DNA of 39,850 nucleotides. Origin: Zoopage sp. CT-All (Eukaryota; Zoopagomycota; Zoopagomycetes; Zoopagales; Zoopagaceae). Made by a program: the position numbers and the translations under genes. Of this stretch, positions 5,349-31,700 are shown one piece after another; the first letter of the stretch is position 1, and every line of letters begins with the position of its first letter. The stretch spans positions 1-39,850 of the forward strand of contig QZWS01000020.1 in NCBI GenBank assembly GCA_004114245.1, read 5' to 3'. A model generated the notes under the pieces. It ran no database searches. It saw nothing but the letters and a program-made list of their open reading frames with translations, and had not been told where the DNA came from.

Positions 5349-15402
<10,054 letters not shown>

Positions 15403-19854: not shown

Positions 19855-22800
19855 TTACTCGTCGGCTCCGCCAACGCGCTCAAAGTAGCCAGCCATAAAC
19901 TCGAAGAAGGCAAACTGGCTGGGCGCAGTGCCGTACCGGTACACAAAGCTGAAATAGAATGAGGACAAATACATGGCACACAAGAATGCCTACCGACTGG
20001 CGAGGTAGGAACCAAAGATGGCACGGATGTAGTTATCCGGCACGCGCTCGAGAACCGTGTCGAGACCCAGCATATCGAGCAACAGGTTTGGCAATGCCTC
20101 CTGGAGGACGACGCGACGTAGCGGCACGTTATTCCAGAGCGAGGTATGCTGGAGCTCCTCGTTGAGGCGGACGATGGCAAAGCTGAGGTCGTCGGAGATG
20201 ATTGATTTGGGCTGGCCCGACTCCTGCGCTTGCTTCCAGATGCACTCAAACTCGAGCTCGGCGTTCTTTTCGATGATCGCCTGGACTTCCTTGACATATT
20301 TGCTGTAAAAGTCAGGGACGTGGTCATCCTTGACCTGCATATGCTTGTAGAACTCGTCGTCGCTGAAGGAGAGCGCGGCGAGCACCTCGAGCGAGGAGCT
20401 GGTCACCCCACCCTTGTTGGCGCTAGCATCCTTGAATACGATGGCGCCAGCGTTCTCCAGACGAAGGCGCGCCTCCTGTGTGAAAAACAGGTTGGCGCCC
20501 TCGACAATGTAGCGGAAGCGCGGGTTGCCGTCGCTGTCCATGAGGCTATAGACGTTGTTCACGTCCACTGCCTCGGGACGGCCGCCGCACGGAACAAACA
20601 GCTGTGCGGACGATTTGCTCAGCAGATGGAACTCGTTACGGAAGGTAAGGCCATCGTCGACGACTTCGCCGTTGGGAAGCTTCACCTTGTACTCGTCGAC
20701 AAGCACGCGGAATCCATCCTTGGACAGCTTCGTGACGTCAAAGTGGTTGATCATCTTGCGGGCGGTGGCGAGGCGCACCAGCTCCTCGCGGTCAATACCG
20801 TGAGGGTCATACAAGACACCGCTGCCATCAACGATGCCGATGGTGAGATCAGACGCAAGCTTGATCTCGTTGGAGCCCAAATCGCCATCGGGGCCGCCCG
20901 TCTGCAGCTTGGTGATGGTCTTCTCGTCGAGGCCGAGCTTACGATAGATTCCGAGCACATACTGACGGACGGAGCGAGTGGTCATGCCAAACAGGTCGTG
21001 AGGAATGCCGCCGAGAGACTGGCTCTTGCCGGTCGTGAACGCTTTCCAGAACGAGGCACCGCGCTGGCGGGCGTGCTGGCTGGCCCAGTCCATGTAATCG
21101 GCGGTGCCCTCGTCGGGGCCGAGGAAGAGGATCTCCTCCTTTCCGTGCAGATCCACAATTTTTTCCTTGATCCCCGGGGACTGGCCGACGAGGAGCAAGT
21201 CGAGCACAGCATCGATGTACTTTTCGAATGCGACCTTTGGCTTGTTCTGGTCAACATCGAGCAGGATAGTGCCCTTGGAGCCTCCCTCGGGAATATCCTT
21301 GTTCTTGCGCTGCTGGGTCGAGGCAAGGGCATAGTTCTCGTCAAAGAGCGAGCGAAGATTGATGGAGTACGCCTCGCGATTGCGCGAGCGAATGATGCGG
21401 ATGCCGCCACGAGCGATATCACGGAAGCGCAGATGGAAGCCTCGGAATTCGGCGCCGACGACGAGGATGAGGCCGTACGGCTTGATGGGGTATTCGATCG
21501 CAGGCAAAAAGTCGGTGGTGAGACGGAACGAAAGCGCAACCTTGGTGGGCTGGTAAAAGTTGGTCTTGAGGACGTGCTTGTTAAAGGTGAGGAACGACTC
21601 AAAGACCATGAACTCGTGGGCGTTGGAGGTCGTGCGCTTGATCTTCTCCAGCAGCTCCTCGTCGGAGAGTGGGATGGCGGTGCGAATGCGCATGTAGGAG
21701 ATGGTAGGCTTGAGGGCGGCCTTGGGCGGATTGATGTAGTGGGTCATGGCAAAGTTGACGTACAGCAGCTTGAGCAGCTCGGGGTACATCTTGATGATGT
21801 CCAGCACGTACTCGCGGGTGAACGTGTCTGTGCGTAGGCGCTTCTTCATCTTGGTCAGCACTTCGACGTGGGCGGGGTTGTTAGTGTCGAGGATGGAAGC
21901 GAGCGTGGTGTACTCGTTGCCAAGACGGTTGAGAAAGTGCTGGGCAAAAATCCATCCAACATAGGCGTAGATTGCCTCCTGCACGGACAGCCTCTTGAGC
22001 TGGAAAAACTCTTGGAGCGGGGTGGTGGGCAGGCAGTAGATGAGGGAGGCCTCCTTCATGACCTGGTAGATGGTGTGCTCAATCGGCAGCGCCTTGGAGC
22101 TCGGCACCGGGTTGAGGTAGATGCAGATGACGGTGACGCCGTTGGCGAACTGCTCAACGTACTTGCGCGTGGAGTAGAGATCGTAGTAGTGATAGAGATC
22201 GGACAGGGCCGAGAAGAACGACTTGGTCGAGCGCTGGCGATATCCAATCACGATGCGCTTCTCGCGGCTGTTCTCGATCGGAAACATCTCAATGACGGGG
22301 CCGTTTCGCTGCATCACGGTGCGGATCACACGCTGGTACATGTCCAGGGTGTTTTCGGTGGCCTTTTCGAGGAAGCGCTTGTCGGCGATCAGGCGAATAT
22401 CCATGGCTTCTTGGGGCGTCGGGTTGGGCCGCACAAAATGGCACTTTCCAACAAAGTAACACCGCAGCTGGGTGGTGAGAGACGACGAGACGGTGCCACG
22501 CGAGCGGTACGTCTCGAGCCGATACGCGGCGCCGTTGATCGAATCCGAGCCATCGAGGTACTTCTCGTCAATGCGCCGCTCCACATGGATCGCATCGGTG
22601 GTGACCGTCGCTCCGGATGTAACCCCAGCAGGCACCACGACCGAGACACCTGGGCGACTCGTGTGAATATACACAGCACCGTCCTCCGTCTCGCGGTCCA
22701 AATGCACCTCCAGCTCCTTCTCGTTGCGCGTGTAGGCCAGGATCTTGGAGCCGAAGAGGGCCATGACATGCTGGCCGATGGTCTCTGCCGACTCGAGCAT

Positions 22801-23112
22801 GAAGTACATGGGATCGATGCCGAGGTTGTGGAAGTACCAGTGGACCTCGGCGTCGATGAGCTCGGGGGGGACAAAGCCCTTGTCGCGGATGTAGGCAGCG
22901 ACATGGGCCATGAGCGGCTCCTTGCCGTCAAAGGTGTTGGCGGCGTAATCCGGCGATCCGCCGGTGTCGGCCATGGCAGAGGCCAGGTTGGCGGCAGAGG
23001 TAGGCGGGGACGACATGGCGGAGCGGGACAGATGCGGGGAAAAAGTGGTCGAGATTTTGGCAGCCTGTTGGCTTGAACGACACGTCTGCAAACATCGCGT
23101 GCTTCTCGTCAT
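19855..23112 (-). CDS. GDH2: NAD-specific glutamate dehydrogenase (fungal ~115 kDa type)
   Basis: Two exons: 19994-23112 and 19855-19948, with a 45-nt intron (donor gtaggc, acceptor ttcag). CDS 3,213 nt, 1,070 residues, the usual size of the fungal large NAD-GDH. It catalyses glutamate + NAD+ to 2-oxoglutarate + NH4+ and NADH, the catabolic direction. Visible motifs: GFHLRFRDIARGGIRI; the substrate-binding PEGGSKG around residue 607; the nucleotide-binding TGGPDGDLGSNE near 740; FVPCGGRPEAV; YIVEGANLFFT. The small last exon supplies FVYRYGTAPSQFAFFEF, as in homologues. The first 40 residues (MTRSTRCLQTCRSSQQAAK...) are Arg/Ser/Thr-rich without acidic residues, suggesting a mitochondrial presequence. 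A second in-frame ATG (MSSPPTSAANLA, residue 33) could start a cytosolic form. Long open frames on the opposite strand are shadows. Confidence 0.96.
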
Positions 23113-23163
23113 TTAGTACGAATGCTATAATATAATATACTAGTAACATGCCCACCCGCGTCG
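23113..23163 (-). promoter_or_regulatory. 51-nt spacer between ABC transporter stop and GDH start, AT-rich
   Basis: The spacer between two same-strand genes contains an AT-rich core at 23125-23140, which reads gtatattatattatag on the minus strand. It could be a TATA-like element for GDH or a poly(A) efficiency element for the upstream ABC gene, or both. The rest of the GDH promoter would have to overlap the ABC coding end. Confidence 0.4.
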
Positions 23164-26100
23164 TCACCGCGAATGACTCCCCTCGACGATGCCCACAGCG
23201 GCAACAAGGCGCTGCCCTATGCCCCACGCTGCCTGCCATACATCCTGCTGCGCTGCCCGGCTCTGTTGAACCGTCATGGCATGGTACCGACCACGGCGCG
23301 CGATCAGGTCGAAATGCCTGCCCATCTCTACGATTCGGCCATCGTGCAACACCACTATGGAGGTTTTGGTGAATTTAGCAACGCGGGAGAGCCTACTGAT
23401 GCGGTCGGCCCATTGGGCGGCCGAAACACGCTTGGATGTCACAATGATGGTGGCGGTCTTGAGGTAACCTCGGATCCCTTCTAGCACTCGCACTTCCAAG
23501 CCTGGGTCGAGACAGCATGTGCTCGAATCGAGCAGCAGCACTCGTGGGTCTGCGGCAAGGGCCCGCGCTATGGCTAGCTGTGTCCGCTTCGATTCCAGCT
23601 CCACGTCATCCTACCAACCGCACACATCAATGGTGTCCCCCTACGACCCAATCAAAACGTACCAAATCGCCCAGTGGGGTGTTGACACCTTGGGGAAGAC
23701 CCGAGACCCACTCGTACAGGCCCACGACGCGCAGCACCTCGTACACTGTCGGCATGCTCACCGACGCATCCTCGCGGTGGCCAAAAATCACTGCATCGGC
23801 CAATGTGCGTCCAAACAGCGCCGAATGCGCGTCTACATGCCGTACTCCAGATCGCAGTGCATCGACAGGCCATCGCACCACAGTGCTTCCGTCTAGCTCC
23901 ACCACGCCTCGATTCGCATCGTACAAGCGAAGCAGCAGATCGACCAACGCGGTCTTGCCGCTGCGGGACTCGCCGATAACGGCCACCGATCGGCCGCCTG
24001 GAATCCGCAGCGTCAATTCGCGGAGAACACGACGTTCCGGCAAGGTTGGGTAGTGGAAGTCAGCGCGATTGAATTCAACGCGACCAGAGTCCCAGACCGG
24101 TGGAAAAGCAGTGTCCGCTGGGTAGGTCTTTATAGGCGCATCCGAGACGTTGTTGAGCTTGGCAACGCTCCGATTTGCAAAATCGTATCGGGTATTCAAG
24201 ACCGTGAGCGTGACGCCGCTCGTCAGAGTGAACAGCACTGTGAATGTAATGATGTACACCTGCCGAAGCGTGTACTCGCCATTGTCCACCAGTGTGGAGC
24301 CATAGTAAAATCCGACAGTGTACAAGAGAACCAGTATGGCTACGCAGTGTCAATGGAATGACGAATGCGCGGAGTATTACAGCTGGCAATGCCGTAGCAC
24401 ACTGCCACGATGGCGATAGCTGCAAGCGATAATCGGCGGGTCAGCTCGGCTTCGTCTGCGAAACATGTGAGGATCAACATGCGCAATCAATCGCAAACCA
24501 TGCAGCAGCTTGACAAAATAATCTTCGCGACGCAGCGAGGCGACGGTTTTGACATTTGGCAGTGTTTCGGTAATCATTCGAATGGAGCGTTTAAAGATTT
24601 TACGAGCACGTCGTCCAAGACTGGCAACGATCAGCGCAACGCAATAATGTGAAGGCGGCACCGTTTAAAGGCATTGAATTGCAGATCGCTGGAGCCGGAC
24701 GCAACCGGACTATGCACCTATCAGCATCGTGTTGTGGGAGGAACATCACAAACTAGATTGTGTACAAAGTGAGAGCAAGCGACCACCTACATGGTAACAT
24801 CGTTTTGTTGTGGAGGTGGACCAAGTTACCCTTGCGAGAAAGAAACCGCAAAGCCAGTGACAAGCATGGCAATATGACCAATAACATCACATAGCAGGCC
24901 GAACAAAAGGTCAGACACGTAGAGAGGGCCAACGGCCAGGATGGACGCTAAATTGTCTATACCACGTGAGCCAAGCTACTGCTTCACACAGAGCAGACCT
25001 GACGAATTGGAACGCTCAAAAAAATACTCCATGGGTCGCTGTAGAATACGGTCGAGGGCGGTCTGGCGAAGATCATTCGCGATGCGTGCACCCAGCATAC
25101 TCAGAGCGATCCCGAGGATAGCTCGTGTGAAGAAGGCGGTAAATGCCAAACCAACAGCGATGAGGGTCCATGTTGTCGTTCGACTTTGGAACGTGTCTAA
25201 GCTTGGCATGTTACAGAAGCCACAGTCGGCTAGAGAGTACTCACTTGGCTGACAGCGAAAGTGCCAGCACGTACTCTGACAAAAGCCACGCGAGAAACGG
25301 CGAGACCACGCCATTGACGAGCATTGACAGCAGCCCGAGAGCGAGCAGCAGCTTGTATCTCAACGCTGCAATCAGAAGCCGCATGATTGGAAACGACGCG
25401 CTGTTCACCGTGCTCGCTTTTGATTTTACAGGTGGGCCGGTGACTTCTTGAGAAGACGCAGAGTCCGCTGGATCTTTTTTGCTGGGCGAGCTCAGTGAAG
25501 CCTCCGCGAGCTCTGCTTGTAAAAGGTCCCAGTACGCGCCTTTCTTCTGTTCTAGCTCAACTGGCGTTCCCGATTCTACCACAGATCCGTCGTGGAGCAT
25601 GACTATGGGTGGGTAAACATGCGTTGCAAGGGAGTATTCTAATACCAAGCAGACCAGGACCAATCTTCTTCGCAATCGTCGCTCTGTTCAGCAAAATTAT
25701 GGCCGTTTTGGCCTTGCACGCGGCTTTGACGACGCTTAGGATAGCATCAATGTTCTCGCCTGCACTTGACGTCTCCGGTAAATCATCAAAAAGAATAACG
25801 TCTGATTCGGATATGATGGCTCTTGCTACTGTCGTCATCTATTAAGTATTTTGTCTCAAATAATGCGCGAATCAAGTGATAAACGCACCCATTGGTGATA
25901 AACAGGAAGCTGCTTGGCGTTCGGGCCCACAACCTCGTCATAGCCATCCTTCAACTCTTCAATAATCTTATCCAGTCCTATTCGAGCACACGCTGAAGCG
26001 ACAGGGTCCAGGTCGGAAACGCCATTCAGCTTAATCGGTGGGGGCGCAAAGAGCACACTTGCCTTCTCGACATCAGCGCCGAATCGCACATTATCTCGAA

Positions 26101-27968
26101 TAGTGGCAGTGAACAACACGGGGTCTTTAGGCACGAGTGCGATGGCTTTTCGCAGGAGTCGAGGAGGAATGCTCAAAATGTTGATGTCGTCGAGCATGAT
26201 CCGTCCTCCTTGCGCTTCATAAAACCGAAGTAGCAGATGGGCGATGGAGCTTTTCCCGCTCAAAGGACCACCAACAATGCAGCATGTTTGTCCAGCGCTG
26301 ATAGTGAAGTTTGCATTACGGAGAACAGGGTTCTCAAGCTGGTTTGGATAGGCAAAGTCGACCTGGGAAAACCGGATGGCCCCGAGAAAGGACTTTGACT
26401 CATTCAACGATGGCGGGTGAATCGGAGCCCCGGCAGCTCTACCAATGACGGGATATCGCCAAGGCAACTCGCCGAGCACAGCTGTTAGCGAGGATTGCGC
26501 TAGTTTGCTTTTGGTATATTGCTCGGCGTCGTGCAGCACTTGCCAAATGCACGTAAACGAGCTTTTCGCTGCGAGAAAGACACGAAGCGAGTCGGGAACG
26601 TCAGTGAAGGCGACAAAGGCTAGCAACGTCTAGTATGGAAAGCAGCATACACGAGGATACCTCCACTGATGGCAAGAAACGTAGTAATAAAATTAGCCAT
26701 TCCCAGCTCGTTCGACTGTGTGAGTTCTGCCCCGTACCAAAATGCCAGGGCATAGGATCCGTCTATCGCAGCCCTCAACGATGCTATAAAGCTGAAAATG
26801 ACCCACATAATGCCAGCTGCAAAAAGGCCGAATTCAGTGCTCGAGTGGCATCCCTTCGCTGTGTAAGGCTGGCAACAGGCTGGAGTGCGGCTGCGTATTT
26901 TGCGATTTGTGCATTGGCAGCACGAAGGATGGCGAGCGTGCGAACACCGCGAATCGATTCAGCAGCGATACGGTCGGCTCGAGCGAAAGCCTGGGCGAGG
27001 CTTGGAATCATACGGTTCGATGCAAAAATCATGATAGCCGAGCTAATAACTACGGGATGTAAATCGTTTCGCAGAACAGCAGAGAGTGCTACGCATGGCA
27101 GGGACAGCTGTAAGCAAAACCAACGACAGGCGCCAGTCTACAGCAGTTCAAGCGCAGCAAATGGATACAAGGTCATGCCAACGGTAAATGCGACTGCTAG
27201 AAATGCCAGCGTGGATACGAATGACTGCAGAAAGCGTGGCAATCCCTGATTACCGATCCCACGGCGCCAGACGCTCCAAGGAGTCGTGTCCTCATTCAAC
27301 TCGGAATCATTGGAGGCATCCGACGGCGCCTTGCTCTTAGCAGCGCCCGACAAGGGCGGATTCACGTTGATTCTGCCCAGCAATTCATACGCACCACCAT
27401 TGGCATCGAACCAAGAACAGGGCAGCGAAAACACCGCGCGCATGTACGCTTCTCTCACCGCACGCGACTGCTTTTCCGCGGCGAGCTCCATGGACGCCGC
27501 CTGCACGGTGCCAGATATCAATGCGACGCAGGCGACGCCGATCAATGCCAGAACCCAGCTCCAAATTTCATCGGACAGCCTTGAGGCGGCGGATTGCTTC
27601 GGCAAGAGCGACGACACCACGTCTGGATAGCGCAATATAAATGCTTGATGGATCGCGAATATCTGCTGGAGGAGCAACACGGCTCCAGGCAGCGTGCAGG
27701 CATTGACGACCGCGAGAATGCAGCTTGCAGCCTGCAACGCCACGGTCTGCCCAAAAACATCCGATGGGCTGCGCACCGGCACCAGTGTTCTCCACAGCGA
27801 TGGGCTTGCCGCGGGCCTCGTGAGTCCAACTGCAGCCGCCGGGTCGTCGTTTGGGCGTGGCTGGGAAGATGAGAAGAGGGAGGTGGTGCCGGCGCTCAGA
27901 CCGGCAAAGGAAGCGTCGAGGGGAGATATGGGCGGCAGCGACGTGCGCCGATTGAGCGCCCACGGCAT
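23164..27968 (-). CDS. Full-length ABCB-type (MDR-like) transporter with degenerate nucleotide-binding domains
   Basis: Sixteen exons: 27142-27968, 27093-27107, 26807-27042, 26661-26762, 25889-26619, 25646-25838, 25245-25602, 24990-25201, 24830-24947, 24766-24786, 24662-24709, 24499-24620, 24381-24455, 23663-24339, 23397-23610 and 23164-23354; 4,140 nt, 1,379 residues. The layout TMD1-NBD1-TMD2-NBD2 is complete (SYALAFWYG in TMD1; SQGWSLALT and GFYYGSTLVDNGEYTL in TMD2). Both Walker A loops are intact: GGPLSGKSS near residue 510 and GESRSGKTA near 1146. A-loop tyrosines are present (FAYP, FHYP). NBD1 has LPVYH for LSGGQ, PKDPVLF for the Q-loop, FDDLPE for LDEAT and LLNRAT for AHRLS. NBD2 has ELESK for LSGGQ, LLLDSST for LLLDEAT and TSKRVS for AHRLS. 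ATP binding may persist but hydrolysis looks lost. Introns remove all in-frame stops, so it is not an obvious pseudogene. An upstream in-frame ATG exists at 28043. Confidence 0.88.
24766..24786 (-). other. 21-nt microexon in the ABC transporter (TMD2)
   Basis: Encodes GWSLALT across phase-2 junctions, between introns 24787-24829 (donor gtaact, acceptor tgtag) and 24710-24765 (donor gtacac, acceptor catag). Its inclusion recreates the conserved GWxLAL motif of ABCB second membrane domains and keeps frame with the following exon (PVASGSSDLQFNAFKR). Confidence 0.8.
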
Positions 27969-28135
27969 GGGGAGAGATGGCAAGGGCGAGCGGTGCGATG
28001 GATGGTGATTATTGGGAAATAAAAATAAAATCCGAGTGCGCATGATGGCTGCTCCTGTGCCACAAGAGGAAGAGGCTGGGGACACGCAAATCGCCCAGCC
28101 ACCGCGCCGCCACCGCACCGCCAGCAGCATGTCCA

Positions 28136-28627
28136 TCACCACTGTGCCCTTCGTCGAGCCCGATTCCATCGAATCACCCGCCGCTTCCAGCCCCACGACT
28201 CCCGTCTCGTATCCATCGCCTCCTTCAGCTTTTCTGTGTGCTCTTTTGCGGCGGGGGCCTGCATCATGACAAATACGGGGGAGCACCCGAATCGCTTTGC
28301 GAGCGCGTTGCGCGTATGCGTCGCTGGATCGGATGCTCGCAGCTCGCGCATCTCGCGCACCTGCTCTGCTGTGAGCATGCTTCCTGACGACGGTTTTGGC
28401 GCGCGGATGGGTGGGGGGAGCACGACTTTAGCTGCGGCGCTGGAGATGTCTGCAGCCGTTGCAGGTCTCGCAGGCAGCGCGATGGCGGCTGTCGCGGGAT
28501 TTCGCACAATGAAGAGAGAATTGTCGGACAGCCGGAACCGCGGCAGGTGCGATGGGATTACATCGGGTGTTCGCTTGATGAACGTCCGCGGAATTCGCGG
28601 AAGCCGGAGGCCGAGAGAGGATGCCAT
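28136..28627 (-). CDS. Mitochondrial large-subunit ribosomal protein mL58 (MRP-L20 family)
   Basis: Single exon; the ATG at 28627 gives 163 residues beginning MASSLGLRLPRIPRTFIKR, basic and amphipathic as expected for a mitochondrial presequence. Upstream in-frame ATGs (for example at 28720) are possible. The middle has SHLPRFRLSDNSLFIVRNP and the diagnostic C-terminal half reads LTAEQVREMRELRASDPATH, then LAKRFGCSPVFVMMQAPA, then a charged helix ending RVIRWNRARRRAQW. This matches the fungal MRP-L20/mL58 family, a fungal-specific mitoribosome component. It lies upstream of the ABC gene on the same strand and divergent from the PACT gene. Confidence 0.85.
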   Translation of the reverse strand: MASSLGLRLPRIPRTFIKRTPDVIPSHLPRFRLSDNSLFIVRNPATAAIALPARPATAADISSAAAKVVLPPPIRAPKPSSGSMLTAEQVREMRELRASDPATHTRNALAKRFGCSPVFVMMQAPAAKEHTEKLKEAMDTRRESWGWKRRVIRWNRARRRAQW

Positions 28628-28770
28628 GCAGTCGTTCTGGACAAGGCACCGTGACGGCTGTTTGGGCAGCCCGCCCAACATTGCTCTCCCGCCTGCGCCT
28701 GCGCCTGCTTCTCGCGACATTCCAACGGATCCATTGACCGTGACAAAGTTTATACCCAGAATCGGTGACC

Positions 28771-31700
28771 ATGAGCGATGCCGATGGTGGTGGGGGGAGC
28801 GGCGCGAGCAGCCGGCGCGCGACATCATCTGCCAACCCCATCACTCGACTGTTCCGGCGCTCCACCGCGCCGGACCACCACGCCGACATTTCCAACGCAT
28901 CCGCGACGTCGGATGCCACATTTGAGCAGGCCTCTTTGGCGAGCACGGACTATCACGCGCAGATCCATGCCAAGGACGAGACCATCAGACAGCTGCGCGA
29001 CGAGACAGAAACGTTCACAGAGACAATACGCGTCATCAACAAGGATGCTGCCGATTGGAAGAAGAAGTACATGGAAGCATGGCGGAAGAAAGAGGAGCTG
29101 AAAGAGGCGGTGGAACAGCTGCAGAGCGAGGTCAAGCAGACCGAGTCCCGGGGTAAAGGTACCCAGTCCACCTTCAATTGCTTGTTGCCCCAAGACCATT
29201 TCAATCGTGTAGAGGAAAAGGCAATGGTCGATTCTCTCGCACGCAAGATTCGGCAGCTTGAATCGACCAACATTCATCTGCAGCAAACGCTGTCTGCCAC
29301 CAATGCTCAGCTGGTGGCTTCCCTTGGCGAAGGCGGTAAAGACGAGGTCGTGCTAGAACTCGAACTTTCTCTTGCCGAGCGCGATGCGCTGGTCGATGGG
29401 CTCAATCGGGATGTAAAGGCCTTGAACGACGACGTCAAGCGGCTAGAAGAAGAGGTGGAGATTTGGAAGCGCAGAGAACAGGAAGCGCTGGATCGTGCCG
29501 GAAAGCTGGGCGACAGTGTCGAGCGGATGAAAAAAGATAGGGACGCGGCGACTGCCGAACTGAAGAGACTTGCTGCACAGGTGGATGCGTTAAAGGCCAT
29601 GGAGACGGTGAATGATAGTAGCCCTAAGGAGCGCGAGATCCGAGGGTTGGGGGACGAGTTAAAGGCCGCGCGAGACCTGGTTGGAGTTCTGCAAGCCAAA
29701 GTCGTGGATGGCGAGGTGGCATTGACTGGAGTGCGCAAGGATCTAGCGGCTACCCAGCTACAGCAAACCCAGCTGCAGCAAACCAAGCTGCTGGCTAGCG
29801 CTGCCACAGTTGGAAGTCCAACATCATCTCGGAAGAAGTTAGCCACCATCCCCGAAACGGATGTATCAGCGGACTATGCACAAATCGTGGCACAGCTCGA
29901 AGCCCATCTCGCCGAGTCCAAATCGTCGTTCCGCAAGGCCATAGATGATCTCAAGTCTGCACACCTTGATCTCGACGTTTCAAGGGCCGAAACGATGCAG
30001 GCGGCAAAGGAAATCGCGTCATTGAAGCTGTACACCCAGAAAATCGAAAATGACCTCGAGAGGACGTCAAGACGAGCATCAAGATCGTTGAGAGGCTCTG
30101 GGGATGCCCGAGATCCGACCAAACCTGACTGGCAGCTTCAGATCCATATCCCGCACGATGCCTTTAATGACGATGACGTGGTTCCTGATCACGCCAGGAT
30201 CGAGGACATGGATGACGCTGAACTCCGCGACGTGATCCATCGTCTACGTGACGAGCTGAACGCATCGCGCGCCTCAACGATGCAGCAAGACGCGGCTACT
30301 GCCAGGCTTGAGAAGGAGAACCGCATGCTGGTCGAGCGTCAAGTCGTGCTGCAGCGCCGAATCAACCAGAGCCCTGCCACTGCGACGGACAAAGTGGAGG
30401 AGAGGAGTGCTCCATCGACGGATGGATACGGAAGTAGGAAGCAGCGCGGACTGAGCATGGTGTCTGCGCGCTTTGCAACGGGCAACTCCCACATCAGGTC
30501 ATTATCACGCCACAGACGCACCGATTCGCAGCAATCTAGTACGCCACCGGTCTCGCAAAGTGAGTATGATGACCCGGAGGAGCCCGAGCACTCTGCTCCC
30601 ATGTCTCGGCAGCATTCTCAATCGGGGTTGGACTCCCCTGGCTCCCATGTGTCTTTCGAGCTCCATCATGCTCCTTCCGCTGCCTCGCCGCTTGCAGTGC
30701 TGGACACGCACAAAGCACTGGTGGCGTCGACCCGCGAAGCATTCCTTGCATCCAAACGCAAATCAATTATTGGCGACATTACCGCGAGCGTCATTGGGCC
30801 AGAGTCGACGGAGGAACGAATGGCTCGCGAGCTCCTCGAGCTAAGGCAGGAGCTCGCAGAGAAGGATGCTATTATCCGCGAGCTGCAAATGATCGACGAA
30901 GACGATGAGGAGGCAGTCGACCAGGACGGTGGCTATGCTCAGGATACGTTGAGGACCGAGACACCGCCGAGACGCGATCATCTCAATCCCCAGTTGACGA
31001 GCACACCGCTAAGACGCCGTTCTAATTCGAGTCGCAGCTCATTTGGAAAACGGCATCCCGAAGGCAGCTTAAATTATGGAATCCGACAGTCTGAACACTA
31101 CGCTCTTCGCGCAGACTGCGAGCAGCTGCAAGAAGAAATCCGACGACTGGCACAGAACCGACAAGACCTGGATCGCGATTTAACAACAAAAGACCAAGAG
31201 GTGGAAATGCTGCGAGGGCAGATGAACTCTATTCTTGATCGATCCCGTTCATTTGTTCATGGCGGCGTGGATGCGGACACGACGGCTATGACAGAGTTTG
31301 ATCCTGATCGCACCCACCCCATCATTCGCGAAACAGAAGCTCTGATCGGCAGTCTTCGTCAGGAAGTCAAGTTGCTTCGGATGGAGCGCGATGGCGTGTC
31401 GGAGGAGCTACAGGAGCGGATCAATCGACTCAAGGACGAAGCCGTTGCCGAAATGGCCCGACTTGAATGGCATGTTGACAAGCAAGCTGCTCGGCTGCGT
31501 GTGTTCGGTGAGGAGATCCCTTTCGAAGACGAGGAGCAGCAAGCAGCGATAAATTCGTCATTCAGCTTTGGAGTTGTGCGGCGCTTGCGACGGTCGAACG
31601 CGGTGCTAAAGAAAAGTCTGGAGCAGACTATAGCGCTGATCAGCGCTGAAAATCTGCCAGCGGACGACGCTTGGCTGTTTGCATTGAGGTCATACGAGGA

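Follow-up and report, generated by a model that had tools for sequence, protein, structure and literature searches.

The window considered here is a stretch of 39,850 nucleotides from Zoopage sp. CT-All (contig QZWS01000020.1, assembly GCA_004114245.1). From 27968 to 23164, its minus strand carries an ABCB-type gene of the ATP-binding cassette (ABC) family. The spliced translation comprises 16 exons and 1,379 amino acids, the sole stop codon being the terminal one; the rebuilt model thus agrees in length and number of exons with the one given in an earlier note on this DNA. At the level of sequence, the gene combines the layout of a full exporter, with two transmembrane domains (TMDs) and two nucleotide-binding domains (NBDs), with the loss in both halves of the residues needed for catalysis and for clamping the ATP sandwich, the retention of nucleotide-binding residues, and a reading frame under constraint.

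Gene model and domain layout

The gene model was built by hand from three-frame translations and then refined stepwise. On the minus strand, the exons are located at 27968-27142, 27107-27093, 27042-26807, 26762-26661, 26619-25889, 25838-25646, 25602-25245, 25201-24999, 24956-24830, 24786-24766, 24709-24662, 24620-24499, 24455-24381, 24339-23663, 23610-23397 and 23354-23164. All 15 introns are of the GT-AG type and are 34 to 56 nucleotides long. They score as non-coding, with a guanine-plus-cytosine (GC) content of 0.47 versus 0.56 in the exons. The 43-nucleotide intron at 24787-24829 (minus strand) matches, in alignment column and phase, an intron of a canonical ABCB gene on contig C349 of the same assembly, and a second intron lies at most three columns from a C349 intron of equal phase. 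The protein is mostly colinear with its homologues over the junctions, so that the excised pieces are insertions relative to homologue coding sequence. Misfits in this alignment are minor. Around the first two introns the protein is short of two residues and has two additional ones; it gains two more at 25645-25603 and lacks four at 24765-24710. The introns of the gene look real. The weak spots of the model are the 34-nucleotide intron and 15-nucleotide exon near residue 276, the 21- and 48-nucleotide exons in TMD2, and the first intracellular loop, where an intron may have been overlooked.

The junction alignment was performed on a preceding model of 1,384 residues, as were the Pfam, homologue and structure searches and the motif counts. 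That model included a 29-nucleotide intron at 26802-26774, which left five extra residues relative to the homologues and was rejected. Because of this misfit, the final model contains a 44-nucleotide intron at 26806-26763 instead. The two models differ by a net five residues, which immediately precede the conserved SYALAFWYG of TMD1 and leave the NBDs unaffected.

The domains follow the order TMD-NBD-TMD-NBD in a single chain. Pfam recognizes ABC_membrane in three stretches and ABC_tran in two, with each TMD preceding its NBD, and this bears out the full ABCB layout proposed earlier. TMD1 (residues 70-462) occupies 26416-27761 including introns, as defined by homologue alignment and Pfam ABC_membrane, and NBD1 (residues 463-740) occupies 25489-26413, as defined by Pfam ABC_tran and an NBD profile. 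TMD2 (residues 770-1085) extends over 24145-25399 including introns, based on the alignment and on an ABC_membrane match at residues 794-1061 of the 1,384-residue model, while NBD2 (residues 1086-1350) was located at 23256-24142 with the NBD profile. All four lie on the minus strand. Hydropathy analysis yields 12 segments, one of which falls within NBD1, leaving 11 plausible membrane segments; the topology is thereby only predicted. When aligned with the C349 protein and rat ABCB4, the first intracellular coupling loop is replaced by a hydrophilic stretch (27261-27368, minus strand; residues 201-236). These 36 residues may be a true insert or a concealed intron.

State of the catalytic motifs

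In the alignment to homologue NBDs, the catalytic motifs of both halves are altered. In NBD1, Walker A reads GGPLSGKS (26249-26272), with leucine for the fourth-position glycine; the Q-loop VPKDP (26120-26134) has lysine for glutamine; LPVYH (25895-25909) stands in place of LSGGQ; Walker B, VILFDD (25782-25799), has aspartate for glutamate; and the H-loop LLNRAT (25677-25694) has asparagine for histidine. In NBD2, Walker A reads GESRSGKT (23951-23974), with arginine for the fourth-position glycine. The Q-loop position VDAHS (23822-23836) has lost its glutamine, the column being occupied by alanine (HVDAHS), and the signature reads ELESK (23587-23601), with one gap in the profile alignment. Walker B, VLLLDS (23524-23541), has serine for glutamate, and the H-loop TSKRVS (23422-23439) has lysine for histidine. 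All of these motifs are encoded on the minus strand. The Q-loop is the link between the ATP site and the membrane domain. The A-loop tyrosine, the Walker A lysine and serine or threonine, the first- and sixth-position glycines and the Walker B aspartate are kept in both NBDs.

The two signatures, the Walker B, H-loop and Q-loop replacements and the preserved A-loop tyrosines had all been claimed in the earlier note, and each of them is found again in the spliced protein and in the alignment to 410 homologue NBDs. Its statement that Walker A is retained stands in part: both NBDs fit the general pattern G-x4-GK[ST] and have the Walker B aspartate, but the ABC-type glycine at position 4 is gone. 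Neither signature is of the LSGGQ type, and the surrounding regions align to homologues with zero or one gap. The chain lacks the one consensus composite site (Walker B glutamate, H-loop histidine and partner signature) expected at minimum of an active exporter, and it does not belong with exporters that have a single degenerate site, such as those of the ABCC, BSEP and TAP type, since both of its composite sites are degenerate.

The earlier note had named splicing that restores LSGGQ, DE and H motifs as the finding that would overturn it. All minus-strand frames of 23000-28200 were scanned for the patterns [LIVMFA]SGG, SGG[QEK], LS.GQ, LDE[APS], AHR, THR and [IVL][IVL][AST]H, and the five matches obtained (27805, 27769, 26670, 25087 and 24490) all lie outside the NBDs. 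In addition, donor-acceptor pairs from GT or GC to AG, 20 to 200 nucleotides apart, were joined in both NBD regions. None of the 2,739 pairs tested (1,184 and 1,555) creates a motif in place; two signature-like strings arise, with a GC donor, downstream of the NBD2 H-loop. No frame or tested junction therefore restores the motifs.

To place this state among relatives, an NBD profile was seeded with 174 canonical-signature NBD segments, taken from 206 of 214 retrieved homologues picked by length. The NBDs of the 214 homologues and the query were then aligned; a gap filter removed 22 of the 434 matches and left 412, including the two NBDs of the query. Proteins sharing words with the query are over-represented among the homologues, and the seeds of the profile were canonical, so the sample serves as a yardstick rather than a census; 207 unlisted matches for residues 480-1350 and five matches of the exon-5 frame lie outside it. 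Six features were scored: Walker A K[ST], the fourth Walker A glycine, the Q-loop glutamine, the signature SG, the glutamate and the histidine. Each query NBD has lost five of the six. Among the 410 homologue NBDs, 305 have lost none, 65 one, 37 two, two three and one four. None of the 196 other two-NBD proteins has lost two or more in both halves, so that within this sample the symmetrical loss is as uncommon as had been suggested. The fourth Walker A position is glycine in 407 of the 410 homologue NBDs, the rest being two alanines and one gap. Apart from those of the query, no NBD of the sample is more degenerate than NBD2 of a retrieved ABCB-like homologue (P0204), which has asparagine for the glutamate and threonine for the histidine; this protein reads LARGQ in both signatures.

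A comparison of columns conserved at 75% or more separates nucleotide binding from catalysis. The binding set consisted of the A-loop tyrosine, seven Walker A columns and the Walker B aspartate, and the catalysis and communication set of the Q-loop glutamine, the signature S-G-G-Q, the glutamate and the histidine; the signature leucine, which is kept in both NBDs in the profile alignment, was excluded. The query keeps 12 of 18 binding columns versus 0 of 14 catalysis and communication columns (Fisher p = 1.1e-4), or 3 of 22 when the D-loop is added to the latter (p = 9e-4). Its catalytic columns (8/21 and 9/21 kept; 0.38 and 0.43) fare worse than the remaining conserved NBD columns (38/67 and 45/67). 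In the homologues the reverse applies, with catalytic columns better kept than other conserved NBD columns (medians 1.00 versus 0.93). The lowest catalytic retention in any homologue NBD is 0.60, seen in proteins in which the remaining columns have diverged further (0.36) than in the query.

Maintenance of the gene and its relatives

There are no premature stops in the 1,379 codons after splicing. In a neutral simulation, the canonical C349 coding sequence was mutated until 25 of 42 catalytic residues were lost; over 200 runs, this left 32 stops on average and at least 19. The codon score is 0.073 in frame versus -0.14 in shifted frames (0.106 for the canonical C349 gene). Synonymous codon preference is 0.076 +/- 0.011. 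The shifted frames give 0.011 and -0.008, and six further long open frames of the window, regarded as genes, give 0.010-0.164. Fourfold-site GC is higher than that of the introns over the gene as a whole (p = 2.1e-4) and in TMD1, TMD2 and NBD2. Neither a broken frame nor a lost coding signal, which would mark a pseudogene, is thus observed. The stop-free frame, the codon usage and the intron common to the canonical paralogue speak against a pseudogene of long standing. The earlier claim that random decay is unlikely is valid for a pseudogene that is old and decays uniformly, but not for a gene that died recently.

Identity to homologues differs between domains. The median identity to 41 homologues is 0.296 for NBD1 and 0.309 for NBD2, whereas no homologue falls under 0.378 and 0.405, respectively; the median for TMD2, 0.206, lies within the homologue range (lowest 0.192). 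Judged by these values, the loss of constraint is domain-specific and centred on the NBDs. A tree was built by a quick method from 44 rows, namely the window protein, the canonical ABCB proteins of contigs C349 and C372, and 41 homologues selected from the 214 retrieved. It carries a long-branch warning, and the window gene falls into no supported set, so it is unplaced. Fast evolution alone does not yield the observed pattern, because the protein with the next longest branch, P0190 (3.14 changes per column), keeps all motifs.

Protein searches were carried out with the full model (95 matches from 7,993 scored candidates), with the 257-residue exon-5 frame (five matches of 1,157) and with residues 480-1350 (327 matches, 120 of them listed, from 7,993 scored candidates). 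No orthologue was found among the matches listed, which are other ABC proteins of 22-39% identity. The viral contigs searched contain none, and the prokaryote genomes searched gave 22 loci of 26-38% identity and nothing closer. Within the gene's own assembly (8.6 Mb, 419 contigs), a search with only the exon-5 frame as query revealed no second copy; its ten matches are the window stretch itself, the gene's own NBD2 and eight others of at most 41% identity.

Contig C349 (L010 1-4234) encodes a canonical full ABCB protein of 1,350 residues, with the 5' end missing, whose LSGGQ, DE, AHR and Q-loop motifs are intact in both halves. The tetranucleotide composition of its 6-kb piece correlates with the window at 0.894 (within-window range 0.82-0.91) and that of its 3-kb piece (L008) at 0.778; three other contigs reach 0.83-0.85. 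On the basis of composition and introns, C349 may come from the same organism as the window. Each C349 NBD has an intron at an equivalent site directly after the signature, and the intron in NBD1 of the window gene lies 8 bases from this site. Contig C383 (L012) carries uninterrupted ABC genes that look bacterial by eye, and more than one organism has apparently contributed to the assembly.

The neighbouring genes fit a fungal genome. A frame with a mitochondrial ribosomal protein L20 domain (Pfam MRP-L20) is located at 28136-28840 on the minus strand. Directly downstream of the ABC gene, at 19990-23019 on the same strand, lies an intronless frame for an NAD-dependent glutamate dehydrogenase (Pfam), likewise fitting a fungus. 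Its fourfold-site GC is 0.81, versus 0.43-0.60 in the other window frames, and it is overlain by long antisense open frames. A long plus-strand frame at 6338-11278 encodes a BEACH-type protein with a neurobeachin DUF4704 and a laminin-G-like domain (Pfam).

Interpretation and comparison with known systems

The reading preferred here, held with middling confidence and drawn from sequence, is that the gene encodes an ATP-binding, non-hydrolysing and non-pumping ABCB pseudo-exporter. Its ancestor would be a functional exporter, and the two composite ATPase sites would have disappeared from a protein that continued to be used. Since the Walker A lysine and serine or threonine, the A-loop tyrosine and the Walker B aspartate are kept, ATP could still attach to the Walker A face of each NBD separately. 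Because both signatures, both glutamates and both histidines are lost, the NBDs should be unable to clamp ATP between them or to hydrolyse it, and the membrane domains would not be cycled as a pump. SUR and CFTR are derived from pumps and retain one live site each, CFTR also having a non-hydrolysing site. The likeliest role of the window protein would be that of a nucleotide-responsive regulator or gate, resembling in its logic SUR or the non-hydrolysing site of CFTR, or that of a partner that modulates another transporter. The ATP-gated channel, sensor or regulator suggested in the earlier note thereby stays a proposal. More tentatively, the gene might represent a working class of conserved ABCB-like proteins in an unsampled fungal lineage, with no hydrolysis and two ATP-binding faces, which would use the nucleotide purely as the ligand of a gate, a sensor or a regulatory subunit derived from an entire exporter. 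A single degenerate site is no rarity in ABC exporters, the remaining site still burning ATP. If the preferred reading is true, a full exporter with both sites dead, but with the frame and much of the membrane portion preserved, would separate the roles of the NBDs that depend on ATP binding from those that depend on hydrolysis, and would be a natural example of a pump converted to another role, as CFTR and SUR are with one live site.

Several observations weigh against this reading. The introns were picked partly for keeping the frame open. Fourfold-site GC in NBD1 is 0.50, no different from intron GC (p = 0.7), a state shared by two of the six other window frames. The branch of the window gene measures 4.19 changes per column, about five times the median of 0.79, and the median identity of TMD1, 0.195, lies slightly under the homologue range (lowest 0.208); both values fit general relaxation. 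The conserved columns kept amount to 25/54 in TMD1, 54/110 in NBD1, 21/35 in TMD2 and 61/115 in NBD2, so that the TMDs have losses as well. A long insert interrupts the intracellular loop by which TMD1 and the NBDs are coupled, and signalling from the NBDs to the membrane may for that reason be gone. Finally, each NBD matches the consensus in only four of the seven conserved Walker A columns, and ATP binding itself may therefore be lost.

The main rival is recent pseudogenisation. According to this explanation, which is considered rather unlikely, the gene first ceased to act as a pump, then diverged under weak constraint and can now be dispensed with, stops not having arisen yet. The very long branch, the losses of conserved columns in all four domains, the placement of many of the 15 introns partly for an open frame, and the failure of the protein, viral and prokaryote searches to find an orthologue are what such a gene would display. 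However, all 200 neutral simulations accumulated at least 19 stops where the gene has none, intron removal mostly restores homologous residues rather than deleting them, codon usage resembles that of the other open frames of the window, and the loss is concentrated in the NBDs.

Also unlikely is a pseudo-exporter that is independent of nucleotide, in which the NBDs serve as scaffolding only, with the membrane domains working as a passive conduit, a scrambler of lipids, a receptor or a partner protein. It would account for the altered Walker A motifs, the lost Q-loops, the replaced first coupling loop and a TMD2 divergence within the family range. The retention in both NBDs of the Walker A lysine, serine or threonine and first and sixth glycines, the A-loop tyrosine and the Walker B aspartate would nevertheless be unexpected if the nucleotide were irrelevant.

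Slow pumping, whether unaided or as part of a complex in which a canonical ABCB protein supplies working sites, is very improbable. Full-length ABCB proteins normally hold both sites in one chain, and with both signatures and both pairs of glutamate and histidine gone, no consensus composite site is left in this one. In favour of it, the available sections of PMC7756269 report that transporters with one degenerate site work and that ATP may stay bound there. The weakest explanation, a gene-model or assembly artefact in which another splice form or a base error masks normal motifs, is close to refuted: the model is read from DNA alone and includes three short exons (15, 21 and 48 nucleotides) and one putative 34-nucleotide intron, but the motifs are encoded in no NBD stretch of any minus-strand frame, none of the 2,739 junctions makes one in place, and the signature regions align to homologues with at most one gap.

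Degenerate sites are well described in the literature. In the available sections of PMC7756269, the Walker B glutamate is replaced by serine in CFTR and by methionine in ABCB11, ATP remains bound at the degenerate site of functioning exporters, and the degenerate site of human full-length proteins is always the first nucleotide-binding site (NBS1). The same text describes the NBDs as glued by ATP and states that loss of the Walker B glutamate blocks ABCB1 function. The ABCB1 replacement E556M abolishes transport, and three further replacements bring it back, as stated in the accessible part of PMC7544095. A fungal ABC survey mentions putative pseudogenes, and the word "degenerate" is absent from its main text as far as available (PMC2848647). 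In Trichomonas ABCA proteins, a consensus NBD is paired with a degenerate one and single altered motifs are common, according to the accessible text of PMC3378599. The term "pseudo-ABC transporter", where it occurs in the available passages of PMC6956336 and PMC7174638, denotes the bacterial SufBCD scaffold and, as an entry in a table, a membrane protein of mycobacteria, both unrelated. Among the matches listed from the open-licence PMC literature, no title or abstract opening concerned an ABC protein with both sites degenerate.

Compared with known systems, the window protein resembles canonical full-length ABCB proteins (P-glycoprotein ABCB1, ABCB4 and fungal Pmd1/Mdr1) in having TMD-NBD-TMD-NBD in one chain, and BLASTP alignments to homologues cover 86-92% of the query in nine of the ten best. 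Among solved structures it comes nearest to P-glycoprotein, ABCB4, BSEP and plant ABCB19, the best match being P-glycoprotein 9nfi (E 6.7e-118). It shares the A-loop, the general Walker A and the Walker B aspartate with canonical ABCB proteins but, unlike them, has lost both catalytic sites, and its NBDs are more diverged than those of any of the 41 homologues. Exporters with one degenerate site include ABCB11/BSEP, TAP, the ABCC family, CFTR and TM287/288, as well as Pdr5 with inverse topology. In the type of change they are like the window protein, with the Walker B glutamate replaced and the H-loop and signature altered (PMC7756269, available sections). However, these exporters keep one consensus site, whereas both are degenerate in the window protein. 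The C349 protein, in turn, is a full ABCB whose gene shares one intron with the window gene in column and phase, and of the two, it is C349 alone that has intact motifs.

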